A DNA stretch of 64,000 nucleotides. It comes from Adineta ricciae (Eukaryota > Rotifera > Eurotatoria > Adinetida > Adinetidae). Shown one piece after another: positions 1 through 10,238 of the stretch (within the stretch, counting starts at the first letter, position 1; each line of letters starts with the position of its first letter). Location: NCBI GenBank assembly GCA_905250025.1, contig CAJNOJ010000008.1, forward strand, positions 248,001-312,000, written 5' to 3'. The notes under the pieces were generated by a model. It had not been told where the DNA came from and did no database searches. It saw only the letters and a list, made by a program, of their open reading frames with translations. The translations under genes and the position numbers were made by a program.

Positions 1-1930
1 ATAATAGTGAACAGTGCTTGAATACGTTGATCTTGTCGTATGTCTTCGCCTCCTTTGACAAGAAATCGATAATCATTTTCGTCATGTCCACGTATGATTA
101 AACGTTTCGGTAATCTTAACGAATGAAGAACTAAGATTTTCTCATCGAAACCAACAATTTTGATATGATGCTCCAATAGTGGTTTCTTTTTGCTTGTATA
201 TTGTCCGGGTATTTCGATTTCACGCGTCGATGGTGTACCGAGAGCTCGATGTTGTTGTCGAAATGTTAACGAAAACCATGTGGAATAATCGTTTATATTA
301 GATTTGTCTTGGGATATTGATTTTAATTTTGTGCTAATTGACGATAGCACTATTTTCACATCGGTTAAGAGAACAGTAGAAAATAATTCACCTTGTTTAC
401 CAAACAATGTGTCGAGATCTTTTTCTACAGAATTTTTGAACTGACACCGTATGGATGTTAAACGAGTCTTTGACAAACGATGATCTGTTCCGTCATTGAA
501 CACACTGTCTTGCGATGTCATCGTAGTGCTCGCGTGTTCTTCATTCGTTTCATCGATACTGATCGCATCGGAAAAGAGAACATCTTTGAATTTCTTCAGA
601 TGAGTCTTAAGTTTCTCGATATCCCGTGTTTGAAGATCATTGGTCAGCAATTGATATAGTTCTTTGCACCAACTCTCAAGCTGTTGTTGAGGATTTAGTT
701 GATTCAATGCTTGAATAAATTCATTGACAAGTGGAGTTTGCCGATCTACTTTGTGACGAATAATTTCAAGATTACGCTTTAATGTCGGATCAGCAATTGA
801 GTATTGCAAAGTCTCATAACTTAGTTTAAACGGATAAACAATCGATTGCGGATAGGATTTTACTATTTGGTCAATTAATGGATACAGTTTTAAACTAAAA
901 TAAAGGAAAAATGAAAAAAAACACGTATTTTCAGGAGATTTCGATACGTACGCAATGGGTTTATCTAGGTGTGCTGTAATTTGATACAAACAATCGAAGA
1001 ACATCCAGCATGGAATTTCTTGTAAACGGTTGGCGATCGATTCCAAAGTGTTCGGATACAATTCAACTATTTGTAGTATACGGGAGAAACGTTTGACACC
1101 TTCATTCGAGCCATATTTCATTGATGATAAGACTGAATGAATAATCAATTCCGCTATTTGTTTACCATTATGACCAGCAAATAAATGACGCATAGGATGC
1201 TGTGTATCATCTTCATTGTTTTCATATCGACGAAGATAATCATCGCAAAATTTCGCTAATTCATTATAATCACGACTAAGTACAGTTTCTTTTCCTGTAC
1301 GATTCGTTTCTTGTTTTTCAATATTACTCTTCAAGATGTTTACACCTTTGTGAAATAATTCTTTGATCAGCGAGTCGGCTTTCTGCATTGTATTATTTTG
1401 ATCGTCTAAACCATAGACATACATTTCTAATTGCCGATGCTTGGCTTGAGAGATCTTCTCATCATGCTCATAGTCACTATAAGCTTTCGGTTGTTCTAAT
1501 AGATAATCAATTATAGTTCGACAAAATTGAGCATTTAACTGTATATATGTCGAGTTCAAGGTCGCACTCTGTTCGTCAGTAACTGGCATAGAATTGATTT
1601 TTAGTTCCAATTTTGTCAATTCTTTCGCAACGAGCGTTGATAACAAGTTCGCCAAATTCGATTGGGATTGATGGCGCTTTAAATGAGCATCACAATAGAT
1701 TTCGTTCCAGTAGATGGATTTGATCAACGGATTTTGACATAAATCCAAACGATTACGCGTATCATTTAGTTTCGTCAGTGCTAATTTAAAATTTCGTTGA
1801 CGTAACGCACAGTAGGCCATGTCAAGTGAAGATTGAACTTTGTAATCAATTAATAGCGGATCGAAGTCTGTTGCTTTCAATCGACTTGTGAAACTCATTC
1901 GCGGTCCACCAATTAAATCATCAAGAATCT
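1..1930 (-). CDS. PRKDC: DNA-PKcs (DNA-dependent protein kinase catalytic subunit), partial
   Basis: This is one uninterrupted minus-strand frame (codons on + triplets starting at multiples of 3) running off the window at 1 and into the N gap at 1931. It covers much of the FAT domain and enters the kinase N-lobe. Near the low-coordinate end it reads KPLLEHHIKIVGFDEKI, then PKRLIIRGHDEND, then FLVKGGEDIRQDQR. The last is the DNA-PKcs form of the PIKK motif; mTOR, ATM, ATR and SMG1 differ here. Further upstream, YPQSIVYPFKLS matches the FAT region. The protein is the Ku-recruited PIKK kinase of non-homologous end joining in the nucleus. The catalytic and FATC parts lie beyond position 1. The roughly 3000 N-terminal residues should lie above 1930 on this strand, but I see no such exons, so the join at the gap is suspect. 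Family assignment is firm; completeness cannot be judged. Confidence 0.9.
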
Positions 1931-1939
1931 NNNNNNNNN
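1931..1939. other. Assembly gap of 9 Ns
   Basis: Nine consecutive Ns separate the 5' end of the DNA-PKcs exon from the 5'-truncated TPR frame. Both coding frames run open to the edge of the gap, so sequence is missing on both sides and the true gap is probably much larger than nine bases. Confidence 0.95.
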
Positions 1940-3202
1940 ACTCTTGATTCTGACGAAGAGTTACGCACACTGACTGATCATATTCGTCGCGAGAGTCATC
2001 TCGATGGTAAAGGTTGGACGCGATTAGGCCAACTGCTAATTCAGTTGGGTCAACATGACAAGGCTGAGGAGATTTATGATACTTTACTCAATCAAACATT
2101 AGATGACGATGATAAAGGATTGATTTATCATCAACTTGGACATATCCGATACAGACAAGGCTTGTTTCAGGAAGCCATAACGTTCTATGACAAATCACTT
2201 GTGCTTTTCAAAAAAACATTTCCTGCAAACCATCCTAATATAGCCACATCCTACAACAACATCGGCTCGGTGTATAACAGTACAGGTGATTATCGAAAAG
2301 CACTGGAATACTATGAGAAAACTCTTTCGATTCAACAACAATCACTTCCTGCAAACCATCCTGATTTAGCCACATCCTACAACAACATCGGCTTGGTGTA
2401 TGACAATATGGGTGATTATCGAAAAGCACTGGAATACTATGAGAAAGCTCTTTCAATTCGACAACAATCACTTCCTGCAAGCCATCCTGATTTAGCCACA
2501 TCCTACAACAACATCGGCTTGGTGTATGACAACATGGGTGATTATCGAAAAGCACTCGAATACTATGAGAAAAGTCTTTCGATTGAACAACAATCACTTC
2601 CTGCAAACCATCCTGATTTAGCCAAATCCTACAGCAACATCGGCTCGGTGTATGACAATATGGGTGATTATCGAAAAGCACTCGAATACTATGAGAAAGC
2701 TCTTTCAATTCGACAACAATCACTTCCTGCAAACCATCCTGATTTAGCCACATCCTACAACAACATCGGCTCGGTGTATGTCAATATGGGTGATTATCGA
2801 AAAGCACTCGAATACTATGAGAAAGCTCTTTCAATTCGACAACAATCACTTCCTGCAAACCATCCTGTTTTAGCCACATCCTACAACAACATCGGCTTGG
2901 TGTATAAGAGTACAGGTGATTATCGAAAAGCACTGGAATACTATGAGAAAGCTCTTTCAATTCTACAGCAATCACTTCCTGCAAACCATCCTGATTTAGC
3001 CACATCCTACAACAACATCGGCTCGGTGTATGTCAGCATGGGTGATTATCCAAAAGCTCACTTGTATTGTGAACGCGCTGTTCGAATTGCCAAGTGTTCA
3101 ATGTCACCAAATCACCCGCATCTTTCAAGGTTCGAAAGAAACCTGGAATATGTGGGAAAAAAAACTGCAGCACTCTTCTTTTCGCGCTATAAAATAAAAT
3201 GA
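1940..3202 (+). CDS. Kinesin-light-chain-type TPR protein, 5'-truncated
   Basis: The frame is open from the first base after the N gap (TLDSDEELRTLTDHI...) to TAA at 3200-3202. The only in-frame start candidate nearby is a TTG at 2045, so the real start lies in or beyond the gap. After an N-terminal TPR-like helical stretch (KGWTRLGQLLIQLGQ) there are seven near-identical 42-residue repeats centred on YNNIGxVYxxxGDYRKALEY, separated by SLPANHPDLATS. These are TPR units of the kinesin light chain/NPHP3 type and serve as a protein-interaction scaffold. From memory, bdelloid proteins with this KGWxRLGxLLIxLGQ lead-in often carry a mono-ADP-ribosyltransferase domain upstream. That part is not visible here. 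The partner is unknown. Confidence 0.85.
   Translation, partial: TLDSDEELRTLTDHIRRESHLDGKGWTRLGQLLIQLGQHDKAEEIYDTLLNQTLDDDDKGLIYHQLGHIRYRQGLFQEAITFYDKSLVLFKKTFPANHPNIATSYNNIGSVYNSTGDYRKALEYYEKTLSIQQQSLPANHPDLATSYNNIGLVYDNMGDYRKALEYYEKALSIRQQSLPASHPDLATSYNNIGLVYDNMGDYRKALEYYEKSLSIEQQSLPANHPDLAKSYSNIGSVYDNMGDYRKALEYYEKALSIRQQSLPANHPDLATSYNNIGSVYVNMGDYRKALEYYEKALSIRQQSLPANHPVLATSYNNIGLVYKSTGDYRKALEYYEKALSILQQSLPANHPDLATSYNNIGSVYVSMGDYPKAHLYCERAVRIAKCSMSPNHPHLSRFERNLEYVGKKTAALFFSRYKIK
2235..3085 (+). repeat. 126-bp coding tandem repeat (about 7 units)
   Basis: The TPR array is also a DNA-level tandem repeat with a 126-bp period (42 codons). Units keep silent positions, for example the recurring aaccatcctgatttagcc block, which suggests recent unit duplication or gene conversion rather than old divergence. 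Confidence 0.9.
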
Positions 3203-5077: not shown

Positions 5078-5585
5078 GTGCTAATCTAATGATCAAGATG
5101 TGATGATTGTAATGGCAAACTGGTTGAGTAGCTGACTGCTTCTCACGGTATAGATGTTTATTGACTACTCTACATGACCAGAATGTGTCTACTTCACAAT
5201 AAGTCACACGCTTATATAGAGAAGAGAGACAGAGAGATGACCCGGAGATAATATGATATATAGGTGAGAGAATAAAGAATGGAAAGAGATGAACGATATC
5301 ATTATCGTTACATTAATCATATCAACAAATCATCCTATGCATGCATGATCTAAGTTTGTTCCACAACGAGGGTGTTCACTTTGTCTTCTTTCTACACACC
5401 AATCAGTTGTTCGATTATTACTGCAGTCTCTGCACAGATACAATTAGCTCCTACTCAATAATATCGTTGCTGGTGACGTACTCCGACAGAAAAACCAAGA
5501 AAATAAACAATTATACATAAATAATATGAATAGCAATAGCAATATGATTTAAGAGAATTTCATTCCGTGATTTATTTTAAAGTGT

Positions 5586-5691
5586 CGCTCCGGCAGATCA
5601 GTGTTGCCACCGATCCGCTCGTTTTCGTCATCGCAACATGTGTTTGATCTAGTCAGATCATTTACCTCTTGGTAAGTTGTAATAAGCAACC
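5586..5691 (-). ncRNA. Spliced leader (SL) RNA gene, copy 1a
   Basis: On the minus strand the leader exon 5691-5666 ends ...ACAACTTACCAAGAG and is followed directly by a GTAAATG donor. As I recall it, the bdelloid 23-nt SL ends the same way and agrees with this copy over its last 22 bases. The intron-like half forms a small hairpin (GATCT-gact-AGATC) and a second stem (GATCGGTG pairing with CACTGATC). The 3' end is estimated from the roughly 105-nt length I recall for rotifer SL RNA. In trans-splicing the leader is donated to the 5' end of many mRNAs. This copy diverges from copy 1b, with 124 bp between the two transcription starts. The 5' end could be a base or two different: an extra TT sits near the expected GG start. 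Confidence 0.8.
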
Positions 5692-5725
5692 TTCCCCTTC
5701 TTCTGAAAACCACGACATCTACCCA

Positions 5726-5737
5726 GTCCTTACACTT
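5726..5737 (-). promoter_or_regulatory. PSE-like element of SL copy 1a
   Basis: The minus-strand sequence AAGTGTAAGGAC lies about 36-46 bp upstream of the SL 1a start. It is a looser match to the ATGTGTrGAGAC element of SL 1b and U2, at the same distance from the start. Confidence 0.5.
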
Positions 5738-5769
5738 TTCACATTCTCTGTCACTTGTTTCGAAACTCG

Positions 5770-5781
5770 ATGTGTAGAGAC
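5770..5781 (+). promoter_or_regulatory. PSE-like element of SL copy 1b
   Basis: ATGTGTAGAGAC lies about 35-46 bp upstream of SL 1b. It matches the U2 upstream element at 11 of 12 positions. A proximal sequence element recognised by SNAPc in this zone is what snRNA-type promoters use. Confidence 0.65.
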
Positions 5782-5815
5782 GGCGAAGAGATCGAGCTGC
5801 AAGCAACACGAGAAA

Positions 5816-5921
5816 GGTTGCTTATTACAACTTACCAAGAGGTAAATGATCTGACTAGATCAAATACATGTTGCGATGACGAAAACGAGCGGATCGGTGG
5901 TAACACTGATCTGCCAGAGCA
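5816..5921 (+). ncRNA. Spliced leader (SL) RNA gene, copy 1b
   Basis: The leader exon is 5816-5841, ending ACAACTTACCAAGAG, with donor GTAAATG at 5842. Hairpins match copy 1a, of which this is an inverted duplicate. The two arms (about 5579-5692 and 5814-5928) differ by only a few bases. A PSE-like element lies upstream at 5770-5781. The gene sits 190 bp before the U2 snRNA gene in the same orientation. No classical Sm site (A-U-rich run flanked by purines) is obvious to me; the 3' boundary is an estimate. Confidence 0.82.
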
Positions 5922-6060
5922 ACACTTTCTAATTAATCGAAAAAAAAGAAAAATTACATCTTCGATCTTTGTTCGGTTCTTCGCAGTACTTAGTCACACG
6001 AATGACGTCATTCATCTGTGAACTGATGAAACTTCGTTTCGTAAAAATAGAAAATATCAA

Positions 6061-6072
6061 ATGTGTGGAGAC
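6061..6072 (+). promoter_or_regulatory. PSE-like element of U2 snRNA
   Basis: ATGTGTGGAGAC lies 39-50 bp upstream of the U2 start and differs by one base from the SL 1b element. In both, a GA-rich run with a GAAGA core follows. The match is unlikely to come from duplication, because the rest of the two upstream regions is not alike. Confidence 0.65.
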
Positions 6073-6110
6073 ATGAGGAAGAAAAGATGAAGGAATTTGT
6101 GATGTTAGTT

Positions 6111-6300
6111 ATCGCTTCTCGGCCTTTTCGGCTAAGATCAAAGTGTAGTATCTGTTCTCGTCGGTTTGAAAGCCGGCGCTGGTCCCATCGGGGCCAGGCT
6201 CTTTCAAGCGGATTTTTGGACATGGGCCAGGATCACCCGAGTTCACTCGGACCTGTGCCACGGATCGTCTTGACACTGCAGTGCCGTCGAGTTCGGTCCA
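6111..6300 (+). ncRNA. U2 spliceosomal snRNA
   Basis: It starts ATCGCTTCTCGGCCTTTT. CGGCTAAGATCAAAGTG and the branch-site-pairing element GTAGTATCTGTTC follow. A stem-loop IIb equivalent (CTGGTCCCATCGGGGCCAG) and an Sm-type site (GGATTTTTGG, near 6210) come next. The 3' domain has stem-loop III (CCGAG-ttca-CTCGG) and stem-loop IV (GGATCG...CGGTCC closing a loop with ACTGCAGTGCC). The length of about 190 nt is normal. ATCAAAGTG is the form found in other invertebrates. One extra C after CCTTTT, compared with human or fly, sits in stem-loop I. All key elements are intact, so it is likely functional. Confidence 0.93.
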
Positions 6301-8872
6301 CTCCTGTTCTTTCGGGAACGGGAATCATATTATTCAAATGTAAAACATGAAACCAAACTTCGTAGACGTAGATTTTATTGATACGTGTATCTGTAAGATT
6401 GGTTATTGTATTTTCCTTGGCGGTAACTTGAGGACAATATGGTTCCATCGAAATATTATGTGACATCACTGCGAATGCAATGAAGATGTGAATCGGTTCG
6501 TGGCAATTCGACTTCTCTTAGCTGCTACAACAGATTTACTTTTCGTTAATGATTAGGTCTATTTCTATATAATAATATAGTAGTTTCCTCGTTCAAACTT
6601 AAACTAGTTACATCTTATCACAGATGGATAGAAATATATCGCATGAGACGAGAAACATTCACTTGTGTCAAATCCGCAGTGCGAATGTAACTAAGATAAT
6701 CGGCAATTCGACACAAGACAACATATAGTTTTTCTATGAAACATGTATCTGAATTGTTGTCGCGAATTTTATTCCTCTATACTAACACCGTAGAGTCCAG
6801 CTAATCCTTTGGACACATCAAACTAGTTCAAGATTGTTTTCTTTTTTAGCGCTTTTCTTCAACGATATCGACGATGAATACACACTTTAAATGAAAGAAA
6901 TACGGCACCGAATCGATGGAAAAGATTCCACATGCGACAACATTTGAAAAACGACTTTCAAAATTTGAAACGAATCTCTCCTTGAGTATACACTCCGAAG
7001 TAGCATCCATGTGATTTTCTAGGACGAATAACTGTGTTGATAAGAAAGAAGAAGTGTTGTCGTACAATATTGATATTCAATCAAATACAAAAGGAAAAAT
7101 CCGCAGAAAGAGGAACTAACAGATAAAGAAGAAAACTGTATAGGTGAGAAAGGTTTTTCAAAGAAAGAATAGAAATGTTCAACAAAATCAACTCATATAT
7201 AAATGGAGAAGTAACTTTTGACATTCGTCACGTATAATCTATGCATCGCTTTTCACTGTGATTTTCTATCTGACTACCCAAGTGAATATCATTCATGGAA
7301 CAAAATGATTTCAAAATCATGTTTGTCAAGGTGTGTACTCAATCAAATTTCTCCACTTCTTGATCAACTATGTTCAATGTTAGAAAATCTGTCAGTTAGT
7401 TTTCTAATTTCCGATCTCATTAGACAGTATCTCAATGGAATATTTACTGCTCTAATCATGATTGTGACTCAATTAATTCTTTTACTTATATTTACGAAAG
7501 TGTTCATTTTACTCGCTACTGGATTGTTTATATTCTATAGAAATATCTCTTAGTATCGAAAACATTTTCCTATATTTCAACTGTATATGAACAAGATCTT
7601 ATCTCATTATGTGTTTCTTCGAAATACTGATGATGTTTTAACAGTTTATTTATATATCAGTTTGATTTCTTCGATTATTCGTGTTCTAAAAAGTATCATC
7701 AGTGAAATGTTATAGATATGTACCGACTTAACGATTCTTTGTTGGGAAGATTTGAAGCTAGCTTTAGTGCTTTCCATGGATTTATTCACATGTAATGTGT
7801 ACATTGGCATCCATCTCATTTCGTCATTCATTTGCTTTGCAAACGTGTTTATGCAACAACTCTGATAAAATCGTCAAAAGCACGACGAAGTTAAGAAGTT
7901 GAAATGGATGAAATGAAGATAATGTCAACTGAAAAAAAGACTATTGAAACAAACAAATACTGTCAGCAAAACCATTGACTCAACATCAGATCGCTCACAT
8001 CTACGAAGAGTTGTCCGGAAAAAGAAATTCGTAAGAAAACAGTAAACCATCTTTTGATTGTTCACTCGAAAATTTGATTATTCATGTTTTAGGATTTTTG
8101 CATCTTCGAATGAGTTCAGCAACGTTTATAGAATCACAAACATCCTATCCTACCATTCTTCATTCATTTTAGTTTGACCCTAAGTTTTGTGGTCTTGAAT
8201 CACTTTCTTTTCAATGAAAATGGACAACTATAAAAATCTTTATTTGTCATAATTCAACTTTCATCAGTTCTTTTCTTAGTTTCAATCATTGAGTGAGATT
8301 CAGCAAAGTTTATCCCATTGATTAAAACAAAAAAACTCAGAAGATTGTTCCTTTTAACTGTTGAGATGGACTTTGACTGGTGTTCATATGGATCATAATG
8401 AACAAAATAAATGTCAATTCTTTTTTGTTAATTTCTATATGTTGCCTTGAATAGGCTGAGCATGACAAACTTTAGACAAAGAAAAGTAATGTTACTACAA
8501 AGGCTGAATGAAACTAATCCTAGCTTTCATTCGCTGATTCAGTCGATTGAGTTTTGACGGCCGAAGAAGGCATGCGAAAAGAAAACAGAGACAAAAAATG
8601 ATGAATGAAGAAATATCATGAAGTACCATTCGATACAGAACTGGTCCGATGTCATACCTTGGCTATCGATAACGGAACACATCTGTGAAGAAACAACCGA
8701 ATCAGACTTTTCAGAAATGTTTTACGGCACAGCATGAGCAACCAACATGGATCCAAAAGTAGTGGAAGTCGTGCAGAATTCTGTCTGCTACTATAATTGA
8801 TGACCAACGTCATCACACCCTCACGTGAGATCATCATACTGTTTCATATTTGTTTTCTTCTTCGTTAATAAG
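6301..8872. other. Intergenic between U2 and the second SL pair
   Basis: No gene supported. A 111-codon open frame at 7218-7553 (+) has a hydrophobic C-terminal half but no recognisable family, no splice context and low-complexity composition; I do not call it. Confidence 0.5.
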
Positions 8873-8879
8873 AAAGTGT

Positions 8880-8984
8880 TGCTCTGGCAGATCAGTATTA
8901 CCACCGATCCGCTCTTTTTCGTCATCGCAACATGTATTTGACCTAGTCAGATCATTTACCTCTTGGTAAGTTTAATAAGCAACC
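8880..8984 (-). ncRNA. Spliced leader RNA gene, copy 2a (variant leader)
   Basis: Minus-strand leader 8984-8960 with donor GTAAATG. It lacks one base relative to the other three copies: TTATTAAACTTACC instead of TTATTACAACTTACC. The body and hairpins are otherwise kept, with a few substitutions. It may make a variant SL or be a decaying copy. Confidence 0.72.
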
Positions 8985-9108
8985 TTCCCCTTCTTCTGAA
9001 AACCACGACATCTACCCAGTCCTTACACTTTTCGCTTTCTCTGTCGCTTGTTTCGAAAGTCGATGTGTAGAGACTATGAAGAGATCGAGCTGCAAGCAAC
9101 ACGAGAAA

Positions 9109-9214
9109 GGTTGCTTATTACAACTTACCAAGAGGTAAATGATCTGACTAGATCAAATACATGTTGCAATGACGAAAACGAGCGGATCGGTGGTAACACT
9201 GATCTGCCAGAGCA
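9109..9214 (+). ncRNA. Spliced leader RNA gene, copy 2b
   Basis: Leader exon 9109-9134 ends ACAACTTACCAAGAG, donor GTAAATG at 9135, identical leader to copy 1b. Body is nearly identical (one change, GCGATGACG to GCAATGACG). The same ATGTGTAGAGAC element lies upstream at 9063-9074. Confidence 0.82.
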
Positions 9215-9437
9215 ACGCTTTCGAATTAATCAAAAGTCTCAATGTATATCGTTATATCAAGATATGTCTAAGTGACGAAATGTTGTTTAAATCAATCTTT
9301 TTTATTGACAGTTTTTTGTCAATATACATATACAATAATATAAGAAGAAATAAACACACACGCACACAAATTAGACACCGAGACATTTGCAAAAACACAT
9401 CACTGTGGCTTAAGAACAGTTTTCATTCTTGTAAAGA

Positions 9438-10238
9438 TCAATATTGCACATCGATAATCTCATCATCTTCATGTGAGGAAATCTCATCACTACTGATACT
9501 ACTTGTGCCAATAGTATTGTCAAGTAGCTCGAGCGACGACTGATCCCTTCTCGTTGTTAAAGATATTTCATGTGTTTTCGAATGTTTGGATAAATGATCG
9601 GATCGCATGAAGCGTTTGCCACACTTCGGACAAACAAAACGTTTTTCGCCAGTATGTGTACGTAAATGACGCTGCAGTTCGTCAGAACGTGTAAATGCTT
9701 TGCCACAAAAGAGCCAAGTACAACGAAATGGACGTTCACCAGCATGCCAGCGAAGGTGTGCTTTCAAATGTGATGTTTTTCCATAAATTTTTTTACATAT
9801 GTGACAGATATGTTGCCGTTTCGATGTTGACGAATCGGCTAGTAGAGATGAGGGCTGATTTATGCAGTTCGGACAGCGACAACGTTTGCATCGACGAGTT
9901 ACAGAGCCGAACAAACTGGATGCGTGTTCATTAACACTCCACCATTTATCGGATGATTCTTTTGTTGGCACTGATGAGTTTGTAGTTGAACTTGCAGATG
10001 ATAACGCTGCAGCAAATGATGGAGGATGAAAAGATGACGGTGGAATAGGAGGCAAAGGTGCTGGTGGTGATGATAATAGAGAAAACTGTGCCTGTAAGAT
10101 TTGTAAAGCTTTCTGACGGATAATAGTTTCAGTATGCAAACGATCTAATGGTGACCATGTTGCTGATTGTTTTACATCCGTTGTTGATCGAGGATTTACA
10201 GGTATGGGTCGAGCAATAGTTGAATGAGTCATTGAATT
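9438..10238 (-). CDS. Sp-family transcription factor, three C2H2 zinc fingers
   Basis: 264 residues from the ATG at 10232. A buttonhead box (CKRCRCPNC, about 115-123) precedes three C2H2 fingers at about 143-163, 171-193 and 201-221. Recognition helices KTSHLKA, RSDELQR and RSDHLSK are those that read GC/GT boxes. Box plus fingers assign it to Sp rather than KLF factors. The N-terminus is short and Pro/Ser-rich, without a clear SP box. The first finger has C-X2-C (CHIC) where Sp proteins usually have C-X4-C. An acceptor (TTCTTTTAG) ends at 10239, and a minus-strand ATG directly followed by a GTATGT donor lies at 10583-10585. Joining them reads M-N-S-M-T-H in frame, so the start may be upstream. 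The acidic tail ends at TGA 9438-9440. Role: nuclear DNA-binding regulator. Confidence 0.88.

Follow-up and report, generated by a model that had tools for sequence, protein, structure and literature searches.

Passages of PMC1925144 describe a 23-nucleotide (nt) leader that bdelloid rotifers derive from RNAs of ~100 nt and add to over half of the transcripts they make; according to the same passages, Brachionus yielded no leader of this kind. Table 1 of PMC3795323 lists the rotifer spliced leader (SL) as GGCTTATTACAACTTACCAAGAG, common to three species. As far as the relevant sections of PMC2784804, PMC6616646 and PMC2606063 go, the SL genes of Euglena form tandem units with 5S genes, and those of dinoflagellates are clustered alone or together with 5S. 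How several animal phyla came by SL trans-splicing is a standing question; according to a part of PMC3488318, SL RNAs have evolved repeatedly from small nuclear RNAs (snRNAs). Among the open-literature matches listed, none deals with how bdelloid SL RNA genes are arranged or with their promoters, and the layout may be partly described in the 2005 original of Pouchkina-Stantcheva and Tunnacliffe. Here we describe SL RNA genes in a stretch of 64,000 nt from Adineta ricciae (contig CAJNOJ010000008.1, positions 248,001 to 312,000 of the forward strand; hereafter the window, with positions counted from its first letter), together with their relatives in the one genome searched (130.46 Mb, its contigs denoted by C-numbers). 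We consider it very probable that the units in the window are working bdelloid SL RNA genes, arranged in divergent pairs under U2-type promoters. This reading is built on sequence, predicted structure with covariation, orientation, a common promoter element and linkage; start sites, transcription, capping, trans-splicing and a shared factor are what we infer from them.

A preliminary description of the window had recognised two head-to-head inverted-repeat units of ~350 bp. Both are present, at ~5579-5930 and ~8872-9222, with 93-96% identity to each other; their arms, said to look perfect, are similar only, with 84% and 94% complementarity inside a unit. Start sites were set at the G of GCTTATT from the published leader; they are assigned, not mapped. 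They fall at 5687/5820 in pair 1 and at 8980/9113 in pair 2, 133 bp apart with 132 bp in between, instead of the ~124 bp first estimated. The window contains three exact copies of the 15-mer ACAACTTACCAAGAG and a fourth that differs at 2 positions, where shuffled sequences lead one to expect 0.13 (at ≤2 mismatches). A GTAAATG donor directly follows the leader in all four copies, as had been described; the leader end, claimed for every arm, is intact in only three of them, and GCTTATTACAACTTACCAAGAG is present in three of the four arms. The 22-nt leader of A. ricciae agrees with the published 23-nt rotifer SL at 22/23 nt (PMC3795323, Table 1), the genome having T where the published leader has its first G; this bears out the likeness to the bdelloid SL that had been proposed. 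The two units and the adjacent U2 gene comprise the following features:

5584..5687, minus strand: SL RNA gene 1, with exon 5687-5666, donor GTAAATG from 5665 and its end at the GCGAC arm; 126 bits, fold z -5.5
5726..5735, minus strand: promoter element GTGTAAGGAC of SL gene 1, at position -48
5688..5819, no strand: spacer of pair 1, 132 bp, with two outward promoter elements between the assigned starts
5772..5781, plus strand: promoter element GTGTAGAGAC of SL gene 2, at position -48
5820..5923, plus strand: SL RNA gene 2, with exon 5820-5841 and donor GTAAATG from 5842; 133.5 bits, fold z -6.2
6063..6072, plus strand: promoter element GTGTGGAGAC of the window U2 gene, at position -48
6111..6306, plus strand: U2 snRNA gene (Rfam RF00004, 141.8 bits), containing ATTTTTGG at 6212-6219
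8878..8980, minus strand: SL RNA gene 3, a variant with a 21-nt leader, 1 base short, which retains the body and the promoter element (9019-9028); 119 bits
8981..9112, no strand: spacer of pair 2, 132 bp, with outward elements at 9019-9028 (minus) and 9065-9074 (plus)
9113..9216, plus strand: SL RNA gene 4, with exon 9113-9134 and donor GTAAATG; 130.3 bits

Each arm would give rise to an RNA of ~104 nt. In the predicted structure the 3' part of the 22-nt leader and the splice donor form stem I; stem II would follow, and then an 11-bp stem III inside a GUUGC/GCAAC closing stem. We aligned 33 distinct copies out of 44 that matched leader and donor with ≤3 mismatches, after removal of 9 exact duplicates and of two incomplete copies, one truncated and one cut by a contig end. 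All leader columns but two are invariant, as are the first three donor columns (GTA) and ATGA.GAAA. The consensus fold, consisting of stem I, the closing stem and the 11-bp stem III, pairs 97.8% of cells, and slid versions of it pair 30-54%. Both sides changed in 28 cells, against a shuffled mean of 8.9, and none of 500 shuffles attained the observed value. Two further counts are weaker: 6 double-change pairs (reached by 35/500 shuffles) and 20 further pair types (28/500). The double changes are confined to stem III. In addition, each of the four window copies out-folds its 200 shuffles, with z from -5.1 to -6.2, and the AUGAYGAAA loop is found in 41/41 of the intact copies defined below. The predicted structure and its covariation are those of a structured SL RNA of ~100 nt. 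Altogether, the leader, the length, the donor, the covarying structure and the U2-like promoter element described below all fit the SL RNA genes that had been proposed.

Across the genome the 15-mer occurs 42 times (0 for a reversed-pattern control), and it is followed by a GT donor in 41 cases. The exception, on C162, was rejected as an SL gene: it has neither donor nor body, and chance alone would put ~0.2 such 15-mers into 130 Mb. We call a copy intact if it has the exact 22-nt leader followed by GTA; there are 41. A covariance model was run over the window and 18 SL loci and gave 64 matches, 59 of them at ≥45 bits; because its coverage was confined to these loci, the counts of degenerate copies are lower bounds. 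A core pattern search returned 33 places, three of which lie outside the SL loci (C64, C62 and C177); an extra SL-like copy at C64:342901-343004 (minus strand, 76.5 bits) is outside our counts. Four copies at C99:113.66-114.83 kb have a leader lengthened by two bases to 24 nt, GCTTATTACAACTTATACCAAGAG; all four retain the donor and the promoter element, the latter at 0-2 mismatches, and may constitute a second leader class. The leader with its donor had 0 matches in viral contig and genome contig collections, as expected for an animal gene.

Among the 59 matches, adjacent pairs within 150 bp are head-to-head in 23/23 cases, 14 of them at exactly 133 bp, and neighbours within 600 bp comprise 24 head-to-head, 3 same-direction and 1 tail-to-tail arrangement. 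A head-to-head partner lies within 150 bp for 33 of the 41 intact copies and within 500 bp for 36. The layout also extends to subfamilies with diverged RNA bodies and spacers: the C2 pair (128 bp apart, partner degenerate), the C43 and C112 pairs (131-135 and 50 bp apart, some with degenerate partners), and the wide pairs of C79 and C146, whose intact copies diverge from starts 351-447 bp apart. These wide pairs contain a degenerate third SL-like copy (C79:266510, C79:273430 and C146:53955), 85-108 bp from the plus copy, and one of the three has no GT donor. Gene conversion from arm to arm was rejected as a special cause of likeness, paired arms being no more alike than other copies of a cluster.

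TATA-less snRNA genes of animals that RNA polymerase II transcribes from a proximal sequence element (PSE) have a conserved element ~50 bp upstream. In A. ricciae, GTGTRNRGAC starts at -47 to -49 upstream of the SL genes and most U2 genes, and the two outward promoters that had been postulated for the spacer find their counterpart in an outward element at -48 of every window arm. The consensus (GTGTRNAGAC, later GTGTRNRGAC) and the TATA-like strings were picked after the sequences had been seen; the element was scored at ≤2 mismatches of 9 within -51..-46. We took the upstream regions of all U1 (6), U2 (15), U3 (3) and U5 (4) matches, of 4/5 U4 and 3/7 U6 matches, and of 52 of the 64 SL matches, leaving out 12 degenerate copies below 95 bits. 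The element is present in 50/52 SL and 13/15 U2 upstreams, and in 1/20 of the other snRNA genes (U1 1/6, U3 0/3, U4 0/4, U5 0/4, U6 0/3). Its GTGTRNAGAC version was found in 42/44 SL upstreams, against a maximum of 4 in shuffles, and intact SL copies keep the element in 40 of 41 cases. Conversely, a TATA-like string at -36..-18 is present in 20/20 of the other snRNA genes, 0/52 SL genes and 3/15 U2 genes.

Over -50..-25, the U2 promoter of C76 and an SL promoter of C79 agree at 24/26 nt, and none of 200 shuffles did as well; over the same interval, 8/15 U2 upstreams are equalled by at most one of 200 shuffles and 2/15 by four. Among the other snRNA genes one U1 (C18b) stands out (2/200) and the rest are equalled by 38-200/200. 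U1, U3 and U5 mostly share TWTGCAATTTNTGC (11/13, at a loose cut) and U4 and U6 share TTCACCGNTTTTG (7/7), in both cases with a TATA-like string at ~-30. At the loose cut, 7/15 U2 genes also touch the U1/U3/U5 element, with 4 mismatches each, and 2 U1, 1 U5 and 1 SL gene touch that of U4/U6. The snRNA promoters of this genome seem to fall into classes. We define here a U2-type class as GTGTRNRGAC at ~-48 without a TATA-like string; the SL genes belong to it. Given the element counts, the TATA-like string contrast and the shuffle comparison, the promoter sequences of SL and most U2 genes form one class, which is unused by the other snRNA genes examined. The same factors may bind the SL and U2 elements.

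A U2 gene that the preliminary description did not mention lies next to pair 1 in the window, its start 291 bp downstream of that of SL gene 2 on the same strand. Genome-wide, 12 of at least 15 U2 matches have their start at a distance of 187-1073 bp from that of an SL gene; eight of these linked genes follow the SL start at 187-321 bp and are read the same way. The other three matches (C76, C155 and C186) are on contigs where pattern searches gave no SL match, and so are all matches to U1, U3, U4, U5 and U6. Four lower-scoring U2 matches (C8:340118, C6:239329, C6:251622 and C8:342887; 99.8-124.7 bits) were noted separately; in three of them CAGTAAAGAC takes the place of the element, and in the fourth there is nothing of the kind. 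Linkage to 5S was rejected, as neither the window nor any of the 18 SL loci contains a 5S gene that reaches the gathering score; elsewhere in the genome there are at least 46 5S loci, none inside SL loci. Both the 15 U2 and the 46 5S genes are lower bounds because only the best candidates were scored. Since a U2 gene with the same element is often near an SL unit, one transcription machinery probably makes both SL and U2 RNA. Two TATA-less U2-type promoters, back to back in the 132-bp spacer, would drive the SL genes outward, and trans-splicing would place the leader on the 5' ends of mRNAs.

Several observations weigh against reading the units as working SL RNA genes in divergent, U2-type pairs. 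In the window, the minus copy of pair 2 is GCTTATTAAACTTACCAAGAG, where one C has gone and a 21-nt leader is left. A head-to-head partner of ≥45 bits is missing at up to 150 bp for 8 of the 41 intact copies and at up to 500 bp for 5; some of the partners that exist are degenerate. Many pairs on C6, C8, C77 and C99 are recent duplicates and not independent, and all belong to one genome. As for the promoter, the element is missing from 2/15 U2 genes and a TATA-like string is found in 3/15; 5/15 U2 upstreams are equalled or beaten by 12-193 of 200 shuffles over -50..-25, and among the 12 omitted degenerate SL copies 3 are within 2 mismatches of the element. The linkage has its exceptions as well: four of the 12 linked U2 genes do not follow their nearest SL gene codirectionally within 330 bp, two of them opposing it, one lying upstream of it and one 1073 bp downstream, and for one of the 12 the nearest SL copy, C43:422050, is degenerate. 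Finally, the Sm site is a difficulty. The rotifer Sm motif is given as AAYUYUGA in the relevant passages of PMC2606063. An Sm motif is typical of SL RNAs without strictly defining them; according to the same passages it is absent from dinoflagellate SL introns. Of the intact copies, 15/41 contain AAYUYUGA, in a position that on inspection overlaps stem II (GAUCAACUCUGAUC), and 26/41 do not; none of the four window copies, three intact and one variant, has it, and AU3-6G occurs in 0/41. Leader, donor and promoter element are retained in 26/26 of the copies that lack AAYUYUGA. The SL ribonucleoprotein (RNP) would either need no classical Sm site or have a site of an unrecognised kind.

Other explanations account for part of these observations. 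Inverted arms in several clustered copies recall a miniature inverted-repeat transposable element (MITE), or another mobile inverted repeat, carrying SL-like sequence by chance, and the flanks of one unit on C43 match each other directly over 8 nt. We reject this explanation, which we regard as barely credible, for want of a duplication signal, for the small number of copies and for the covariation. The longest flank match averages 5.6 nt against 5.0 nt when shuffled (16 of 17 units measured), the copies are few and clustered, the pairs on C79 and C146 are still divergent at their wider spacing, and neither compensatory changes nor a promoter element at a fixed distance are expected of a MITE. 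Hundreds of copies with target-site duplications, which the preliminary description had named as the mark of a transposon, are not what was found in the window and the 18 loci (64 model matches, no duplication signal). That most copies are pseudogenes, with a few intact ones supplying the SL RNA, is also improbable: the short leader of the window variant and several degenerate copies speak for it, and against it stand the 41 copies with exact leader and GTA, 40 of them with the promoter element.

A more serious contender, to which we give somewhat less than an even chance, is that pairing and U2 neighbourhood came about passively, through duplication of a single ancestral SL-SL-U2 block, with neither its layout nor the closeness of its genes having a functional role. 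Units do recur as blocks (C8, C6, C99), likeness within clusters (mean 0.967, 83 comparisons) is about that between the arms of a pair (0.960, 12 pairs), and a U2 start lies within 1.1 kb of only 10/23 SL pairs, leaving 13/23 without one, a count that also weakens the case for linkage. What passive duplication does not lead one to expect is that the head-to-head layout is retained in the diverged subfamilies (C2, C43/C112, C79/C146), and that the same element is present at the U2 genes of C76 and C155, contigs on which no SL copy turned up. Convergence or local gene conversion, in place of a common origin of the SL and U2 promoters, seems unlikely to us without being far-fetched. SL and U2 genes adjoin closely, which makes conversion easy, and for several U2 upstreams the likeness to SL promoters is limited to the short element; the best match of all, however, joins the U2 gene of C76, where no SL copy turned up, to an SL gene of C79, whose loci have no U2. 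Working SL RNA genes under U2-type promoters remain our preferred reading. We put forward, tentatively and with more doubt than belief, that bdelloid SL genes arose by capturing a U2 promoter, and that the SL-SL-U2 block is a co-expressed module in which the trans-splicing substrate is made beside a splicing RNA, the SL RNP being assembled without a classical Sm site, perhaps via the AUGAYGAAA loop. A promoter class that SL and U2 genes have in common and the other snRNA genes examined do not use, combined with the physical linkage of SL and U2, is a concrete lead to one origin of SLs that can be checked in other rotifers, and the missing Sm motif raises the question of how the bdelloid SL RNP is built.

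Two open reading frames (ORFs) of the window were noted in passing. One, of 266 amino acids with C2H2 zinc fingers (Pfam PF00096), lies just past SL pair 2 at 9438-10238 on the minus strand; the other, of 436 amino acids, is made up of TPR repeats that resemble one another (Pfam TPR_12, 458 bits; 3 unknown residues) and lies at 1892-3202 on the plus strand.

Compared with the PSE-driven snRNA genes of animals, the SL and U2 genes described here are alike in having an element ~50 bp upstream and no TATA-like box at that promoter type; they differ in that the element is found at U2 and SL genes and is absent from 19/20 U1, U3, U4, U5 and U6 genes, which have other elements and TATA-like strings. 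The bdelloid SL RNA of Pouchkina-Stantcheva and Tunnacliffe 2005, as quoted in parts of PMC1925144, PMC3795323 and PMC2606063, agrees with ours in leader identity over 22 nt and in an RNA of ~100 nt; ours has T for the first G and lacks AAYUYUGA in 26/41 copies. The linked U3-U5 genes of Euglena, in the portion of PMC2784804 that describes them, likewise recur as families in which two small RNA genes are linked; they are convergent, involve other RNAs and no SL, and their authors report no head-to-head U3-U5 linkages there. With the SL arrays of Euglena and dinoflagellates, as they appear in the sections cited at the outset (PMC2784804, PMC6616646, PMC2606063), the A. ricciae genes share a multicopy nature and, in part, linkage to another small-RNA gene. 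The preliminary description was right to set its divergent units apart from tandem or 5S-linked arrays: in A. ricciae the partner is U2 and not 5S, and the SL genes stand head-to-head and not in tandem.

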